Source of the DNA: a virus
Virus record (IMG/VR): IMGVR_UViG_3300027985_000227
Coordinates: 1-64,000 of that record
Direction: 5' to 3' (one strand)
Length of the DNA: 64,000 nucleotides
Shown here piece after piece: positions 7,446 through 33,140 of the stretch. The notes under the pieces are model-generated. The model ran no database searches. It was not told where the DNA came from and saw nothing but the letters and a program-made list of their open reading frames with translations. The position numbers were made by a program, and so were the translations under genes. The stretch's first letter is position 1. Each line of letters starts with the position of its first letter.

Positions 7446-7567
7446 ATTTATTATGGCAAAGGTAGTTCCTATAAATCTTTGGCGATATACTACCCGCCTA
7501 CTAAGCGCGCTCTACGCCGTTGTCGAATGGATTAGAGCTTGTATTGGCTAAATAGGTTCCTATATAC
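7446..7567 (+). ncRNA. Two copies of a recurrent hairpin motif
   Basis: Hairpins at 7446-7476 and 7541-7567 share the plan ATGG or TTGG, an 11-base loop (CAAAGGTAGTT, CTAAATAGGTT), then CCTATA. The same motif occurs at 10306-10334 and, in variant form, at the 5' side of the RNA at 10179. The flanking stem bases differ between copies while pairing is kept, which is evidence of RNA structure. It may be a protein-binding element for the gene product at 7607. Confidence 0.5.
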
Positions 7568-7606
7568 ACTTCTAACTGTATACCTATCGCTACATTGGAG
7601 ATTATT

Positions 7607-9400
7607 GTGAAAGACATAGTTTATGCGACTTTAGATCTGTTTAATGGAGTTCCAGCTCTAGCTGACGCCGAACAAGAACATTCTATCAACACAGAGTTCG
7701 GTCTTGTAATAGACCGTGATGCCAGATGGTTAGAAAGTAACATAGAGGACTATGCACGCTATAAACAATCTACTGGGTATGATTTAAATCGTACGTTCCA
7801 TAAGTCTTGGGCTAAAATAGCTTCAATGAGTGACCGGGAGCGTATAACTCACCAGATCATTCATTACGCATCCACATACGGTACTAATTTCGAAGGTAAT
7901 ACGTATTTACCAGATGAGGTTTTACGTATACCCAATTACGATTTGACGTTTAAAGTTATTCACGCATACGATGAAGACGCACTGATAAAAAAGTGCTTGG
8001 ATATACTAATCAGCGGAATAGCTTTAAAAGATGAAACAATACACAGTATCTTTTTGGTTCTTAAGTATTGTAACTACATCTTTACAGGTAAAGAAGGGAT
8101 TCGTAACCGTGAAGCGTTGATGCATATTGCAGACAACTTCGGTCCGTGTATTTTAAAACCAGAAGAGTTAGTCCGTTACTTGGTGTTCAAGTCGACTGGT
8201 TCTACGTTGCTCATTAAGAACATGAGTACGTATCAGGCTATAGCCAAAAGTGCGTTCAATCCACGTGACGTCCTTTTAGCGTATGGTTTAACCAAGATTT
8301 CATGTGTGTTCAACAGATATAAGCCTATCTTTATGGCGCTTAAGAGCAAATGTCGTACTGAGATAAACTATATCTCCAAAGCCAGTAAAACGAATCATGT
8401 ACCAGTGACCGAAAACCCATTAAATAAGGTCACTACCACTATTCTGACCGAGTCAGAGATGCCTTGGTTGGAAAACGCCACAGTGTTTGCCATATTCAGA
8501 GCTATGCACGCGTGCAATACACGTATGCGCGGTCAAAATACGTTCGTATATAAGGTACGTAATGGTAAGTCATTTGCCAAATTTAACCCTGTTAATAAGG
8601 TGAGTGACATTGTGTGTCAACACAACTATATTGTGCTAACGAAGTTCTTGAAGGCCAAATTTGATATGACCAAAAGCGTGTTCTTACCAAAAGACATTCT
8701 TTTTGGTTTACCTACGTCCGAGAAGCAGTTCATTGGAAACGTTCCAATTGGTACCAAAATTATTGGTGATTCGTTGGCAGTAGGTGTGTACTGGAGAAAT
8801 GATTGGGGCGCTAGAGACATTGATCTGTCAGGAATGAGCATAAGTGGTAAAGTTGGCTGGAACGCTTCATATAGACAACATGGATATATTAAGGACGAGT
8901 ATGGCTTAATGTATTCCGGCGATATTACCAATGCTCCAAATGGTGCAGTAGAGTACTTGTGGGCTGGTAAGTACGTCGATAATTCACTCGTACAGACAAA
9001 CATATTTAGTGGTAAAGATACGTGTAAATATCGTATCATTGTAGGTGATGCTGACAATATAAATCGTGATTACATGATGAATCCAAATAACCTTAAATTC
9101 TATGTCGAAACAAACAGTGTACAGAAGCAGACAATTTTAGGTATGATAATGCCATATGATGGCAGAGTAGCGTTTGTTTTGTTTAATACAGGTTCTGGGC
9201 AGTTACGTGTAAGCGGTGGAAAGAACACACATCTCTTCCGTGAGGCGTTGATCCAAGAGTGGACTAACAATATCACACTTAATGACGTGTTGTACTCTAT
9301 GGGAGTGACTATAGTAGAGTCGCCAGAAGAAGCTGATATAGATTTATCGATTGAAGCTCTTCAAAAAGACACGTTCATCTCGATGTTTGAGGTGAAGTAG
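7607..9400 (+). CDS. 597-residue protein of unknown family within the RNA locus
   Basis: GTG 7607 is chosen because GGAG lies six bases upstream; a TTG at 7595 lacks a site. The N-terminal 350 residues are mainly helical and repeat-like (LNRTFHKSWAKIAS, ITHQIIHYASTYG). The C-terminal 200 residues look beta-rich and include RDIDLSGMSI..GWNASY..YSGDITNAPNGAVEY, distantly reminiscent of TerD-type domains. No vWA metal-site motif (DxSxS) is seen, so it is not a standard Ro60. It is flanked on both sides by structured RNAs sharing a motif, so an RNA-binding role is inferred from context. Confidence 0.7.
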   Translation: MKDIVYATLDLFNGVPALADAEQEHSINTEFGLVIDRDARWLESNIEDYARYKQSTGYDLNRTFHKSWAKIASMSDRERITHQIIHYASTYGTNFEGNTYLPDEVLRIPNYDLTFKVIHAYDEDALIKKCLDILISGIALKDETIHSIFLVLKYCNYIFTGKEGIRNREALMHIADNFGPCILKPEELVRYLVFKSTGSTLLIKNMSTYQAIAKSAFNPRDVLLAYGLTKISCVFNRYKPIFMALKSKCRTEINYISKASKTNHVPVTENPLNKVTTTILTESEMPWLENATVFAIFRAMHACNTRMRGQNTFVYKVRNGKSFAKFNPVNKVSDIVCQHNYIVLTKFLKAKFDMTKSVFLPKDILFGLPTSEKQFIGNVPIGTKIIGDSLAVGVYWRNDWGARDIDLSGMSISGKVGWNASYRQHGYIKDEYGLMYSGDITNAPNGAVEYLWAGKYVDNSLVQTNIFSGKDTCKYRIIVGDADNINRDYMMNPNNLKFYVETNSVQKQTILGMIMPYDGRVAFVLFNTGSGQLRVSGGKNTHLFREALIQEWTNNITLNDVLYSMGVTIVESPEEADIDLSIEALQKDTFISMFEVK

Positions 9401-9627: not shown

Positions 9628-10177
9628 TAGACACAACAGGTCTTTACTCGACAGTGATGTACGAGTAATAGCTGGGCCATTTGAGTCTACTATAGGTAGA
9701 ATGCTGCATTTTGGTTGGAATTTTGATGTATCTGTGGACCAGATATCATTTGGAGATATGCTGTTATGTGGTCGTAACTATAAATCTAACACTGTTTTTC
9801 AGTGCTTGATCAATAACTACAGGTATGCGCACATACGAGATTTTCGTGTTATGTACGTGCCGGCTGATACGGTTTTATCAGTGGAGATCAGTAGATCTAC
9901 ATACATACCACCAATAGCGCTACACAGTGCGCATGTTGGTAAGCTAGTCATGGGTCCGGCTGGACGCGAAGATATGATCATATACGAGGCGGGTGTTAAG
10001 AATGAAGAGCCAAGTGAGATCATAGTAATGCCTGAAGATATTCCAGGATTACTGGATAAAATACTTAAGGCTCAAGAGCCGAAGGCCAAAGAGATTCTGA
10101 AAAACGAGCGTCGTCGAAGTGAGATGTCTGAGCTTAAGTTAAAAGCTAAGATTCTGACTTTCGACAAAACGGGTTAG
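9614..10177 (+). CDS. Hypothetical protein between the RNA elements
   Basis: A 187-residue protein from a GTG start that overlaps the preceding gene. The first 130 residues are beta-rich and the tail is a charged helix (KAQEPKAKEILKNERRRSEM). The stop codon lies one base before the YrlA-like RNA begins, so this mRNA and that RNA are probably co-transcribed. No domain recognised. Confidence 0.6.
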   Translation: MLAFDRHNRSLLDSDVRVIAGPFESTIGRMLHFGWNFDVSVDQISFGDMLLCGRNYKSNTVFQCLINNYRYAHIRDFRVMYVPADTVLSVEISRSTYIPPIALHSAHVGKLVMGPAGREDMIIYEAGVKNEEPSEIIVMPEDIPGLLDKILKAQEPKAKEILKNERRRSEMSELKLKAKILTFDKTG

Positions 10178-10178
10178 T

Positions 10179-10304
10179 GTGGACAAAAGAGGTTCCTATC
10201 TACTTAATAATCTGCTGGTTACTGGTTCGAATCCAGTCTGAACACCGAAGGTGATTCAGTAGCTCAATTGGTAGAGCAGCAGAATGTATCTACCTCTCGT
10301 CCAC
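10179..10304 (+). ncRNA. YrlA-like (bacterial Y RNA) tRNA mimic, circularly permuted tRNA layout
   Basis: Read 5' to 3': outer stem GTGGAC and GAGG; tRNA-like anticodon 3' strand TCTGC (10211-10215); five-base variable loop; T arm ACTGG-TTCGAAT-CCAGT; acceptor strand CTGAACACC; tight loop GAA; acceptor strand GGTGATTCAG; TA; D arm GCTC-AATTGGTA-GAGC; anticodon 5' strand GCAGA (10279-10283); outer stem CCTC and GTCCAC. Every tRNA element is present at canonical spacing, but the acceptor is closed by a loop and the anticodon stem opens into a terminal stem. This is the reported topology of YrlA RNAs, which tether Ro60-type proteins. A permuted tRNA needing ligation is the alternative. Confidence 0.7.
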
Positions 10305-10305
10305 C

Positions 10306-10362
10306 ATTATTATGGCTAAGAGTGTTCCTATAATTGCGGTTCAATTCCGCAGCCCGAAAGGG
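10306..10362 (+). ncRNA. Recurrent hairpin plus partial T-arm/closed-acceptor module
   Basis: A hairpin ATTATTATGG (11-base loop CTAAGAGTGTT) CCTATAAT (10306-10334) matches the motif at 7446. It is followed by a perfect T-arm-like hairpin TGCGG-TTCAATT-CCGCA (10335-10351) and a short stem CCC-GAAA-GGG. This repeats the T-arm and closed-acceptor part of the preceding tRNA mimic but lacks a D arm. It is either a second, truncated Y-like RNA or the 3' part of the same transcript. Confidence 0.45.
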
Positions 10363-10406
10363 TCAAGGATTTGTATACACTTCGCCACTTGTATAATAGG
10401 TGTTAT

Positions 10407-10838
10407 ATGAACTATGTACTTGGTTTTATGTTCGACTCATCGTTCGACAGAGTCTTGCTAATAAAAAAGAATAAGCCAGAATGGCAAGCAGGCAAGTTAA
10501 ACGGCGTGGGTGGAAAGGTCGAGCGATTTGAAACTGGACCGAAGGCCATGGTACGAGAGTTCAAAGAAGAGACAGGTGTAGATACTTCAGAATCTGATTG
10601 GAAGTATTTTCTTAATATGATTGGTAGTGATTGGTGTGTAATGTGTTTTGCATGTATAGGTCCAATAGAAAAAGCTATATCAATTACAGATGAAAAAGTA
10701 TTTCCTGTGCATATAGCATCAAGTATACACCACCACAACAATTTCTTGATTGAGAATATACCATGGCTTGTTCAACTAGCCATTGATGTTCTTAAACGAG
10801 GCAGACCTCACATATCTAATATAAGGTATCCGTCATGA
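10407..10838 (+). CDS. Nudix hydrolase
   Basis: A 143-residue protein from ATG 10407. The complete Nudix box (GX5EX7REUXEEXGU) is at residues 36-58, with GKVERFE and REFKEETGV. Nudix enzymes hydrolyse nucleoside diphosphate-X compounds with Mg or Mn bound by the box glutamates. The substrate is not evident; the coupled NADAR gene two genes downstream makes ADP-ribose compounds or modified dNTPs reasonable guesses. A weak promoter (TTGTAT, 15 bp, TATAAT at 10371-10397) may precede it. The stop overlaps the next start. Confidence 0.88.
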   Translation: MNYVLGFMFDSSFDRVLLIKKNKPEWQAGKLNGVGGKVERFETGPKAMVREFKEETGVDTSESDWKYFLNMIGSDWCVMCFACIGPIEKAISITDEKVFPVHIASSIHHHNNFLIENIPWLVQLAIDVLKRGRPHISNIRYPS

Positions 10839-12389: not shown

Positions 12390-12596
12390 ATGGAAGACTT
12401 AACACTGGGTGAGATCAGAAAGCTGTTACGGCTGTCTGAACAATCTATTTGTGACTATATAAATCATGAGTTGAATCAATTACGTGCCATTGGTATTGTA
12501 CCAGAGGACGTCGATTTAGATAAAATCGTCACCAAAAGTTTGGGTTATGACGATGAGTTACGTATATCAGATGTAAGTATAGAGATAAAAGTATGA
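12390..12596 (+). CDS. Small acidic hypothetical protein
   Basis: A 68-residue acidic protein starting MEDLTLGEIRKLLRLSE, helical at its N-terminus. Its stop overlaps the start of the RlaP-like gene (ATGA), so the two are made together. No family recognised. Confidence 0.55.
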   Translation: MEDLTLGEIRKLLRLSEQSICDYINHELNQLRAIGIVPEDVDLDKIVTKSLGYDDELRISDVSIEIKV

Positions 12597-13552
12597 CGCC
12601 AATAGTAAAAATGGTCTTTGGGTCACACTTGTATGGCCTAGATACACCAGAATCAGATAAAGATTTTAAAGGTGTGTATCTACCTGACATCAATGACATT
12701 CTGTTATTAAAAGTACAAAACAGCATATCTACATCCACAGGTAATGACAGATCAAAAAATACAAAAGATGACGTAGATACTGAGATATTTTCTCTGCAGT
12801 ATTTTATGAATATGTTAGCTCAAGGGCAAACTATAGCTTTAGATATGGTGCATGCTCCTGACTGGGCCATAGAAGTATCTAGTGAAATTTGGATGCACAT
12901 AGTAAGTTGCAAGCATAAGTTTTACACAAAGAATATGACAGCTTTTATTAGTTACTGTCGTAAACAAGCCAATAAGTACGGTATAAAAGGTAGCCGTCTA
13001 GATGAAGCGATAAAAGTAGAAATGTTTCTATCATTAAGACCAAATGATATGCGTCTATCGTCCATCTGGAACCATTTACCTGATGGTGAGCACATTCATA
13101 AGCTGCCACCATCTGACACAGACATGTCTAACAGACGTATTTATCAAGTAGTTGGTAAACAGTTTCTAGAGCACGCTAGACTCAGTGAAGTACGTGGGAG
13201 CTTACAGCAGTTCATAGCTAATGCTGGTGACAGAGCAGCTAAGGCTAGAATGAATCGCGGTATTGATTGGAAGGCTGTATCACACGCTGTAAGAGCAGCG
13301 GATCAAATGAAACAGTTATTCACTGAAGGTACCATTACGTTCCCATTGAAGCGTGCTGAATATATAAAGTCTGTAAAAATGGGTAGACTAGACTACACAA
13401 GACTTGTAGCACCAGATTTAGAACGGACAATGGACGAGGTGGAAGAATTGGCCTCAGTAAGCGGTTTACCAGATACGGTGGACTACAAGTGGCTGGATGA
13501 TTTTACTGTGTCATTAATTAGAACTAAGTACAATCTCCAGTTTTATCCTTGA
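12593..13552 (+). CDS. RlaP-type predicted nucleotidyltransferase
   Basis: A 319-residue protein. The N-terminus VFGSHLYGLDTPESDKDFKG carries the polymerase-beta-type signature: GS at residues 10-11 and the metal-binding DxD at Asp22 and Asp24. This layout fits the RlaP group, nucleotidyltransferases proposed from gene-neighbourhood studies to act in RNA repair. The C-terminal two thirds are helical. The phage encodes several tRNAs and a tRNA mimic within 6 kb, which makes RNA-end repair after anticodon-nuclease attack a plausible role. No RNA ligase is seen in the window. Confidence 0.75.
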   Translation: MTPIVKMVFGSHLYGLDTPESDKDFKGVYLPDINDILLLKVQNSISTSTGNDRSKNTKDDVDTEIFSLQYFMNMLAQGQTIALDMVHAPDWAIEVSSEIWMHIVSCKHKFYTKNMTAFISYCRKQANKYGIKGSRLDEAIKVEMFLSLRPNDMRLSSIWNHLPDGEHIHKLPPSDTDMSNRRIYQVVGKQFLEHARLSEVRGSLQQFIANAGDRAAKARMNRGIDWKAVSHAVRAADQMKQLFTEGTITFPLKRAEYIKSVKMGRLDYTRLVAPDLERTMDEVEELASVSGLPDTVDYKWLDDFTVSLIRTKYNLQFYP

Positions 13553-31126: not shown

Positions 31127-31641
31127 AGAGCATTATCGTAGAAGGTTACGATAACATGGGTAAGTCAACATTGATTGATGACTTACACCACACATCTTCA
31201 TTTAACTTTCCAATACACAGAGCAGGTCCACCAGCGCAAAACGATGCTCATGCCATTTTATGTTGTGAAGAGCAACTAGATAAAATGGTTCACCAATCGT
31301 CATACACGCTTTTTGATCGTATCACACCTATATCCAGGACATGTTACCAGTTTGACATAGGTGATCGTCACAGACGTACTCTAAGTATGTTCTTACGTGA
31401 AATGATGAGGCACTCTATCATAGTATGGTGCGATACTGATAACGACCCTGAATCACACGTAGTTAAAGAGTATGATACACCGGAGCACCTTGAATTCTTG
31501 CACAACAATGAATTCAAAATCATCTCGAATTATAGAGACATTATGGCATCATTGCCTGGTGTGATTCGATATGATTATAGAGCGCACAGTATAGACCAAC
31601 TTGTGGAGAAGATAGATGTCGCCGTTTCTAGCCGCCTATAA
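31123..31641 (+). CDS. P-loop nucleotide kinase
   Basis: A 172-residue protein from ATG 31123 (overlapping the upstream TGA). The Walker A motif is VEGYDNMGKSTLID (residues 6-19), and LFDRITPIS resembles the DR(Y/F)..S motif of dNMP and deoxynucleoside kinases. Inferred roles are phosphorylation of 5-hydroxymethyl-dCMP, as T4 gp1 does, or a polynucleotide-level kinase as in phages with hypermodified thymine. Overlaps the hydroxymethylase gene by 26 bases. Confidence 0.75.
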   Translation: MKSIIVEGYDNMGKSTLIDDLHHTSSFNFPIHRAGPPAQNDAHAILCCEEQLDKMVHQSSYTLFDRITPISRTCYQFDIGDRHRRTLSMFLREMMRHSIIVWCDTDNDPESHVVKEYDTPEHLEFLHNNEFKIISNYRDIMASLPGVIRYDYRAHSIDQLVEKIDVAVSSRL

Positions 31642-32407
31642 CGAACTGAAGACACGTGGACAACTTACAGCGCCGCGTGGACATCGGGTATTAGAGATAG
31701 AGGATTTCAGTATAGACTTCCATCCTATACTTGACCGATTCTCTAACTTCGATGCTCGTAAGATGAGCATCGACTATGCCAAGAAAGAGATGGCCTGGTA
31801 TCTTCGCGGTGATCGTTATGAAATGACGATCACAGAAGAAGCTCAGATGTGGAAACAGATTATTGACGTAGACGGAGGAATCAACTCCAATTATGGTCAG
31901 TATATTTTCCACGATCAATCACAGTACAAGTGGGTTATCGCCGAGTTAAAGCGAGACAAGGATTCACGACGTGCATCGATGATGCTGTTAAATCACACCC
32001 ACTTCAGACCAAATAATCCTGATGTTGTGTGTACGTATGCTATCAACTTCCGCATACGAAATAATCGTCTGAACATGTCCATACATATGAGATCATGGGA
32101 CGCCATATGGGGAATGACCAACGATGTGTTCTGCTTCAGTGTAATATACGAAGTAGTTTACTCGCTTCTTCGTGAACACTATGTAGATCTGCAGGTAGGT
32201 AACTACCACCACACAGCTGACTCATTTCATGTGTATGAGCGGCACTTCAAAATGCTGGATAAGCTCATATCAGATGGGATGGGCGGATACAAACCTGTGT
32301 ACTGTCCTACCATATCTGGCCACGAAGAAGCTAAGTGGTTAATTCGTAATAAATCAAAGCAACCGTTCCCGAAGTATCGCTTCAGTGAGTGGTTGTTTAC
32401 TGTATAA
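31616..32407 (+). CDS. Predicted dCMP hydroxymethylase (thymidylate synthase fold)
   Basis: A 263-residue ThyA-fold protein. The catalytic Cys is in PDVVCTYAINF (Cys139), the phosphate-binding Arg pair is at 118-119, and HMRSWDAIWGM, LQVGNYHHTADSFHVY follow the TS order. At the position of the Asn that selects dUMP in ThyA (GLPFN) this protein has Asp170 (GMTND), the change known in T4-type dCMP hydroxymethylases. With ThyX encoded next door for dTMP, this enzyme is free for base modification. It likely makes 5-hydroxymethyl-dCMP. Alignment was by eye. Confidence 0.8.
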   Translation: MSPFLAAYNELKTRGQLTAPRGHRVLEIEDFSIDFHPILDRFSNFDARKMSIDYAKKEMAWYLRGDRYEMTITEEAQMWKQIIDVDGGINSNYGQYIFHDQSQYKWVIAELKRDKDSRRASMMLLNHTHFRPNNPDVVCTYAINFRIRNNRLNMSIHMRSWDAIWGMTNDVFCFSVIYEVVYSLLREHYVDLQVGNYHHTADSFHVYERHFKMLDKLISDGMGGYKPVYCPTISGHEEAKWLIRNKSKQPFPKYRFSEWLFTV

Positions 32408-32417
32408 TGAGGTTGTT

Positions 32418-33140
32418 ATGGAAAAAATACAAGTTTTGGATCACGGGTTCGTTCAGCTACGTAACCTTTCTGGCCCAACAAGACGTGTCTTCGATGGTGA
32501 CAGTATTAGAGATTTTGACGGTGACGATACTGATCCAGCCAACAGTGCAAGGATGTCTTTTGACTCTATGGATTCTGGAAGAACTCGTGATGAAGATTTA
32601 CGGTTAGCTGAGTATTTGATGAAAAACAAACATACCACACCTTTTGAAATGATAGAAGTGTGGATTGAGATGAAGATGCCAATCTTCGTAGCTCGTCAGT
32701 TTGTTCGCCATCGTACAGTGACTATCAATGAGGTGTCAGCCAGATACGTCACACTTCCAGAAGAATGGTATATACCAGATGTGGTCGGCGGCAAAGCGGC
32801 CACTGCTAAACAGGGTCAGGAAGACACTTTGCCATTGGCTGTGCAAGATACGTTCAAGGTTGTATTAAACGAAGACTGTAAACGCAGTTATGATAGTTAT
32901 CTTGACTTCATTAATGTTGGTGTAGCTAATGAGCACGCTCGCCTTTTCCTACACGTTAACCACTATACCCACTGGTTATGGAAGCAGGACCTGCACAACA
33001 TCATGCACTTCTTAAGCTTGCGTGATCACAGTCATGCTCAAATAGAGGCGCAGCTTTATGGTAAGGCCGTAGACGCTCTACTTCGTCAGCATTTACCACA
33101 CTCTATGGAGCTTTACGACAAATACAGGCGGATGAAATGA
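32418..33140 (+). CDS. thyX: Flavin-dependent thymidylate synthase
   Basis: A 240-residue protein; ATG 32418 follows GAGG by five bases. The ThyX signature RHRTVTINEVSARY (RHRX7S plus RY) is complete, and FLSLRDHSHAQIEAQ provides the C-terminal substrate site. It converts dUMP to dTMP using FAD, NADPH and methylene-tetrahydrofolate. Presence beside a ThyA-fold homologue implies that the homologue has another job. Confidence 0.95.
   Translation: MEKIQVLDHGFVQLRNLSGPTRRVFDGDSIRDFDGDDTDPANSARMSFDSMDSGRTRDEDLRLAEYLMKNKHTTPFEMIEVWIEMKMPIFVARQFVRHRTVTINEVSARYVTLPEEWYIPDVVGGKAATAKQGQEDTLPLAVQDTFKVVLNEDCKRSYDSYLDFINVGVANEHARLFLHVNHYTHWLWKQDLHNIMHFLSLRDHSHAQIEAQLYGKAVDALLRQHLPHSMELYDKYRRMK

Follow-up and report, generated by a model that had tools for sequence, protein, structure and literature searches.

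The Locus and Its tRNA-Like Unit

The window analysed here is the whole stretch of 64,000 nt that makes up positions 1 to 64,000 of the IMG/VR virus record IMGVR_UViG_3300027985_000227. It carries a tRNA-like RNA unit at 10179-10304 and a protein gene starting at 7607, referred to below as gene 7607 or the partner gene (Table 1). The original prediction took the RNA to be phage-encoded, in agreement with the presence of portal, tape measure, PolA and Prim-Pol in the 65,469 bp record.

The T arm, looped acceptor stem, D arm and anticodon stem that the original prediction had described are all present. The acceptor hairpin consists of CTGAA/TTCAG (5 bp), a bulged A, CACC/GGTG (4 bp) and a GAA loop. 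Folding of 10175-10310 gave -42.8 kcal/mol compared with -29.8 (sd 3.6) in 200 dinucleotide shuffles (z -3.63), none of which was equally low. A 10-bp terminal stem had also been proposed; a helix is indeed found there (10179-10193/10292-10304), but it is made of 6 + 6 bp, with AAA opposite C. The fold, and the recurrence of the arrangement in nine other units (see below), bear out the inside-out, i.e., circularly permuted, tRNA topology of YrlA with a closed acceptor.

Table 1. Positions of the RNA units, their parts and the genes treated in the text; positions refer to the window unless a locus is named.
Feature	Position	Strand	Basis or remark
tRNA-like RNA unit, YrlA topology	10179-10304	+	sequence inspection, folding, Rfam YrlA match, pairing count
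Outer stem of this unit, GTGGAC/GTCCAC	10179-10184/10299-10304	+	6 bp
5' AAA bulge versus single 3' C	10185-10187/10298	+	between outer and inner stems
Inner stem, AGAGGT/ACCTCT	10188-10193/10292-10297	+	6 bp
Conserved TCCTAT	10194-10199	+	just inside inner stem
Anticodon stem, TCTGCT/AGCAGA	10211-10216/10278-10283	+	opens into terminal helix
T arm, ACTGG-TTCGAAT-CCAGT	10221-10237	+	inspection, folding, pairing count
Closed acceptor hairpin, CTGAACACC-GAA-GGTGATTCAG	10238-10259	+	inspection, folding
TA, D arm GCTCAATTGGTAGAGC (GCTC...GAGC, 10262-10277), then AGCAGA	10260-10283	+	inspection, folding, pairing count
Plain hairpin unit, upstream of partner gene	7454-7499	+	model R1 42.3 bits, E 6.2e-12
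Plain hairpin leader unit, just before likely ribosome-binding site	7545-7592	+	model R1 33.3 bits, E 9.1e-9
Second long-bodied handle unit	10313-10387	+	fold z -2.4 to -2.5; model R1 10.5 bits, E 1.1
Partner gene, 597 aa (codons 7607-9397)	7607-9400	+	GTG start after GGAG 7597-7600; TTG 7595 also possible
Nucleotidyltransferase with RlaP (RNA repair) match	12593-13552	+	PF10127 E 8.2e-11; phrog_388 E 1.7e-83
Normal-order tRNA-like sequence inside unit (class d), L045	4638-4755
Normal-order tRNA-like sequence inside unit (class d), L055	3923-4038
Normal-order tRNA-like sequence inside unit (class d), L062	4699-4816

Several simpler readings of 10179-10304 were rejected. An intact tRNA was discarded because ARAGORN calls none there; the tRNAs that it calls elsewhere in the window are tRNA-Pro, -Met and -Leu only. 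A terminator was discarded too, and a scan of promoters and terminators found no excess over shuffles. Plain chance or a tandem-tRNA artefact was rejected since no complete tRNA lies at 10179-10304 and the arrangement recurs beside one gene.

A Common Handle

A repeated bulged helix was first seen in the flanks of three relatives of gene 7607. The rule that describes it was set on the window and the loci L002, L005, and L008 and then scanned over all loci. This helix, which we call the handle, has an outer stem, a 5' AHA bulge opposite a single 3' C and a 6-bp inner stem followed by UCCUAU. The window holds four handle units, all of them flanking gene 7607. Three of these, as well as the array habit, the bacterial linkage to RtcB and the version with normal tRNA order described below, go beyond the original prediction.

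In the consensus of 328 units the outer stem starts with C-G or T-A, the bulge is AAA, ATA, or ACA, and the six inner pairs end in G-C, T-A; then come TCCTAT(A), a body with an interquartile range of 22-31 nt, a T before the 3' strand, and the single C. Among 50 units sampled from 252 plain units 99.8% of pair cells were standard and 129 cells had changed on both sides, compared with 33.7 in shuffles; as the units were picked by pairing, dinucleotide shuffles put through the locus scan are the fair control. All outer and inner pairs except the closing U-A vary with their partner kept, and G-T pairs are kept. A covariance model (R1) built from these 50 units, window sequence excluded, matched in 18 of 18 whole genomes or records, with up to 150 first-look candidates scored in each and only one to four matches in each of the eight bacteria among them. 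The two long-bodied units of the window, 10179-10304 and 10313-10387, score only 10.4-10.5 bits (E about 1) with R1, and their assignment is therefore based on the handle pattern, the fold and the YrlA match.

A conserved GAAGTTCCTAT-like string is seen at window positions 10188-10199 and also in other units. It recalls a half site of the yeast FLP target, which we take to be a coincidence.

Linkage of the Handle to One Gene

Relatives of gene 7607 were found in the cyanophages S-CRM01 and S-CBWM1, in the gut phage Phass-1, in 71 IMG/VR loci and in 134 bacterial stretches, mostly from Chryseobacterium and other Bacteroidota, 80 of which were kept for analysis. The 150 loci of the set were reduced to 129 non-redundant ones, 124 of which had at least 150 nt upstream of the gene. 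Handle units were located within 700 nt upstream of the gene in 117 of these 124 loci, 291 units altogether, compared with a mean of 1.35 (maximum 5) in 20 dinucleotide shuffles. The same scan found no unit on the opposite strand and, in 555 kb lying beyond a distance of 2.5 kb from the gene, only two. At least one unit lies within 2.5 kb of the gene in all 80 bacterial loci, and 63 of 70 viral loci, the window included, have a unit; of the seven viral loci without one (L015, L022, L023, L025, L054, L072, and L079), L023, L025, L054, and L079 have a gene that runs off the contig start. In addition to its adjoining units Phass-1 carries handle units at 105674-105908 and 107186-107237, about 10 kb from the partner gene.

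A conserved handle with near-exclusive linkage to one gene has the look of an RNA-protein pair. Judged from this arrangement, the partner of 10179-10304 is probably the product of gene 7607. The original prediction, which had named this gene, held that the protein partner may be new, and it now has a strong candidate.

Relation to YrlA and to Permuted tRNA Genes

The Rfam YrlA model (RF02553) matches 10207-10289 with 40.8 bits, E being 8.9e-8 in a search of 401 nt and 3.4e-9 when the whole virus record is searched. This falls short of the 69 bits that Rfam sets as gathering score, and the match spans positions 17-92 of the 114 in the model so that the basal stem is outside it. The related loci L002 and L008 score 35.9 and 33.1 bits, and an Rsr-binding basal stem of the YrlA type is, on L002, a forced one with mismatches. 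The YrlA score alone is not decisive, because at E<=0.001 the same model also matches 7 of 14 control genomes. The reading of 10179-10304 is instead settled by the nine other permuted units that recur beside relatives of gene 7607. Of the YrlA kinship proposed originally, the topology thus holds and strict membership, with a score below 69 bits and an unmatched terminal stem, does not: 10179-10304 is YrlA-like in topology and no YrlA by membership.

Like YrlA (Salmonella YrlA, PDB 6CU1), the window unit has the order T arm, capped acceptor, D arm; it is a circularly permuted tRNA whose ends are paired in a basal stem, and it is encoded beside the gene of a candidate partner. Unlike in YrlA, the basal stem is a new bulged handle, units of this type occur in arrays with plain hairpins, the handle RNAs include relatives with normal tRNA order, and no TROVE match was found for the gene beside 10179-10304, whereas YrlA is encoded next to a TROVE/Ro60 gene. 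Circularly permuted tRNA genes of algae and archaea also encode the 3' half before the 5' half. The window unit differs from these in that it would restore no anticodon loop and in that its acceptor hairpin looks kept, not removed. Phage YrlA-like RNAs as such have already been mentioned in print (excerpt of PMC7765460).

Genes Next to the Partner Gene

Of the 80 bacterial loci, 70 have a relative of the RtcB ligase beside the partner gene and on the same strand; it precedes the array in 67 of them and follows the partner gene in the other three. RlaP relatives are present in 53 and PrfH relatives in four of the 80. None of the three was found in 78 viral loci as fetched, and the window has no match to RtcB; linkage to RtcB in an operon is therefore a feature of the bacterial relatives only. 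For the RlaP-type gene of the window (Table 1) a link to the RNA-protein pair is no more than suggestive. Elsewhere in the window, at 31616-33137, genes for thymidylate synthase (PF00303) and ThyX (PF02511) adjoin.

A precedent is the Salmonella repair operon rsr-yrlBA-rtcBA, which adds RtcB to Ro60 and Y RNAs (PMC7790460, in part). As in this operon, the bacterial relatives bring together at one site RtcB, a protein gene and small RNAs, a tRNA mimic among them; in contrast to it, the partner protein is without TROVE by sequence and has a TerD-like C-terminus, and in viral loci no RtcB was found beside the partner gene. PrfH-RtcB repair systems (excerpt of PMC6514570) resemble locus L138, which has RtcB and PrfH upstream, but a PrfH relative is found in just the four bacterial loci mentioned.

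TROVE genes were sought in 40 genomes or records behind the loci. Separate ones are present in 10 of 27 bacterial genomes with the partner gene and in none of 13 virus records with it (the window's own record not among the 13). As both genes exist in 10 of the 27 bacterial genomes, they are no simple replacements of each other. Conversely, 20 loci around TROVE genes contained no handle array when scanned; there were four weak matches at two distinct places, with bodies longer than 120 nt.

The Candidate Partner Protein

Searches with the partner protein gave no meaningful match in Pfam, PHROGs, NCBIfam, or PADLOC, the only NCBIfam match being a TonB-receptor model at 15 bits, far below cut-off, and a profile search of the PDB found nothing relevant. 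An AlphaFold2 model based on 44 sequences (pLDDT 91.1, pTM 0.90) has a helical N-terminal region at about 1-360 (TTG numbering) and a beta domain at about 390-540. In the model the C-terminal domain has a TerD fold: residues 390-542 align with 3ibz (Z 10.8, rmsd 3.0, 137 residues aligned) and 2kxt (Z 8.7), and Foldseek finds 2kxt at E 2.3e-4. At E<=0.1 the Pfam TerD profile is unmatched by 44 family members. The partner thus has a domain fold in common with TerD proteins of the tellurite and stress response and, unlike these, fuses it to a 360-residue helical region and is linked to RNA units. Larger phage proteins of 680-750 aa share the overall fold in BFVD (E 2e-18 to 3e-12) and come from a Campylobacter virus, Lactobacillus phage LpeD and a siphovirus; the annotations among the BFVD matches include a tellurium-resistant-like and a cytoplasmic protein.

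It is conceivable that the partner is a very diverged Ro60, i.e., a HEAT ring with TerD replacing the vWA domain, and that the RNAs are ordinary Y RNAs. The VIA list for the model contains two long-range matches, the Ro60 chains 2nvo (Z 3.1 over 250 residues, model 126-601) and 9nen (Z 3.0 over 264 residues, model 122-599), and the bacterial gene order resembles rsr-yrlBA-rtcBA (PMC7790460, in part). However, both Z scores, while suggestive, are in the chance range, and the N-terminal domain alone (pLDDT 86.7) gave no clear fold match and no Ro60 row. The TROVE profile (PF05731) matched none of 44 family members at E<=0.1, hhalign of the partner against seven TROVE proteins taken from genomes of this kind gave probabilities of 1.5-2.9, and the handle is unlike the YrlA basal stem. 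We therefore consider a Ro60 origin unlikely, and the Ro60-type protein that the original prediction had associated with such RNAs is not found here in the strict sense.

Bodies on the Handle and Two Circular Permutations

The bodies carried by the handle fall into five classes, drawn by inspection of the units. In class a the body is a plain loop and in class b a T arm with a small hairpin, as in 10313-10387, where the T arm at 10335-10351 is accompanied by a GCCC-GAAA-GGGT hairpin and there is no D arm. Class c is the permuted tRNA-like form, ten units in seven virus records. Class d has a whole tRNA-like sequence of normal order inside the unit, with the handle beyond the acceptor (Table 1). 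Class e, a tRNA-like RNA of normal order as well, has the handle with a short loop on its end in place of the anticodon loop. A lenient T-arm test called 152 of 174 units plain, and the median body measures 27 nt.

For the ten permuted units, i.e., the window unit and nine others, picked by eye and counted by script, the own acceptor strands form a mean of 6.5 of 7 pairs compared with 3.5 when strands are swapped; the window unit forms 5 of 7 in strict register. Normal-order units were tested in 42 of 46 candidates, one being left out as well as L055, L078, and L113, each of which spans two units. At least 6 of 7 acceptor pairs were seen in 39 of the 42, a T stem of 4-5 bp likewise in 39, and 36 are bacterial. 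By their sequences classes c and e are thus circular permutations of each other about the same anticodon-arm handle. The normal order with a capped handle is found mostly in bacteria and the YrlA order with a capped acceptor in viruses. As both permutations occur, it is the tRNA shape with a handle on the anticodon arm that is conserved, not the strand order.

In locus L138 positions 10246-10470 hold a chain of tRNA-like modules with pairing between the acceptor 3' strand of each module and the 5' strand of its successor (CATAATC-GAAC-GATTATG, TATCC-GAAA-GGATA); the Rfam YrlA model gives 47.3 bits here. These modules are possibly further permuted tRNA mimics, without a handle.

The position of the handle in the anticodon arm, the existence of both orders and the RtcB genes that adjoin the bacterial arrays would also fit tRNA introns or permuted tRNA genes, with the bulged helix as a splice site and RtcB resealing the product to a linear tRNA. 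Most units are, on the other hand, without any tRNA, as seen from the plain majority and short bodies above. The stretch from TCCTAT to the anticodon stem varies widely in length and excision of the handle would therefore leave no constant 7-nt anticodon loop. The handle also differs from the archaeal bulge-helix-bulge, in which two 3-nt bulges surround 4 bp. An origin of the units as introns or permuted tRNA genes is in our opinion quite improbable.

Placement of the Units Around the Gene

The last upstream unit ends a median of 21 nt before the start codon and within 60 nt of it in 106 of 117 loci. These leader units differ from the rest in the first outer pair, which is T-A in 77 of 106 compared with 15 of 222 other units. 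Their position and distinct outer stem, both read from the sequence, suggest that the partner gene may be autoregulated. In the window four bases separate the end of the leader unit from the GGAG of the partner gene.

The crowding of units in the 5' leader could also mean that the hairpins act in cis only, as leader regulators, and that the tRNA-like bodies are captured tRNA debris. We assign this a low probability, since units are found downstream of the gene as well (14 in 8 of 123 loci versus 2.3 in shuffles), among them the two window units at 10179 and 10313, about 780-990 nt past the stop of the partner gene; moreover, Phass-1 has units up to 10 kb away, and the pairing of T, D, and acceptor stems is kept across many sequences. 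That the units are DNA-level repeats, i.e., recombination sites or mobile hairpins, is hardly credible: they are tandem imperfect inverted repeats with short A/T-rich spacers, but occur on one strand only (291 versus 0), have no cassettes between them, contain tRNA bodies and keep G-T pairs.

A Proposed RNA-Protein Machine

We consider it likely that 10179-10304 is a member of a small-RNA family with a common putative protein-binding handle and that this family serves the product of gene 7607. From the RNA family and its structure, the gene linkage, both permutations and the bacterial RtcB linkage, all of which were computed here, we infer binding, processing and a function of the RNAs as well as the autoregulation of the gene. 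The handle would anchor the gene 7607 product, a helical protein with a TerD-like C-terminal domain. What hangs on the handle, whether a bare loop, a T arm or a tRNA-like body without anticodon, would be the effector domain, and the variable bodies would be what the particle presents. The particle would use the tRNA shape to recruit or divert enzymes recognising T and D arms, such as modification enzymes, an exonuclease like PNPase or, in bacteria, the neighbouring RtcB ligase. As has been proposed for Ro60/YrlA, the setting may be the repair of damaged RNA or its turnover. By way of the unit nearest to the start codon, the partner protein probably represses its own mRNA. In Ro60/YrlA the ring protein sits on the basal stem and PNPase on the tRNA-like part (PMC8394870, in part). 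By analogy the system described here would work like Ro60/YrlA and the RtcB operon, with another protein and another handle.

The same RNA-protein pairing next to an RNA-repair enzyme in many bacteria suggests an unrecognised RNA-protein machine. The chances seem somewhat better than even that it is an undescribed RNP family of phages and Bacteroidota, made of a TerD-containing protein not recognisably related to Ro60, an RNA array with one handle and a tRNA mimic in two permutations. In the literature searched we came across no account of the handle and its arrays, of a TerD-type partner, of linkage to RtcB or of the two permutations; a connection to TerD or RNA may already be noted by Burroughs and Aravind (2016).

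Phage tRNA mimics now have a conserved handle in the RNA and a candidate partner protein, and the Ro60/Y-RNA idea may be extended beyond TROVE proteins. One tRNA mimic in two strand orders is a natural experiment on what is selected, i.e., shape plus handle. As the bacterial versions adjoin RtcB in culturable Flavobacteriia, the role of Y-RNA-type tRNA mimics in RNA repair is directly testable. If the proposal is true, the Ro60/Y-RNA principle would have been invented here independently, or would be present in a form diverged beyond recognition; in bacteria it would be coupled to repair by RtcB, and viruses would carry it too.
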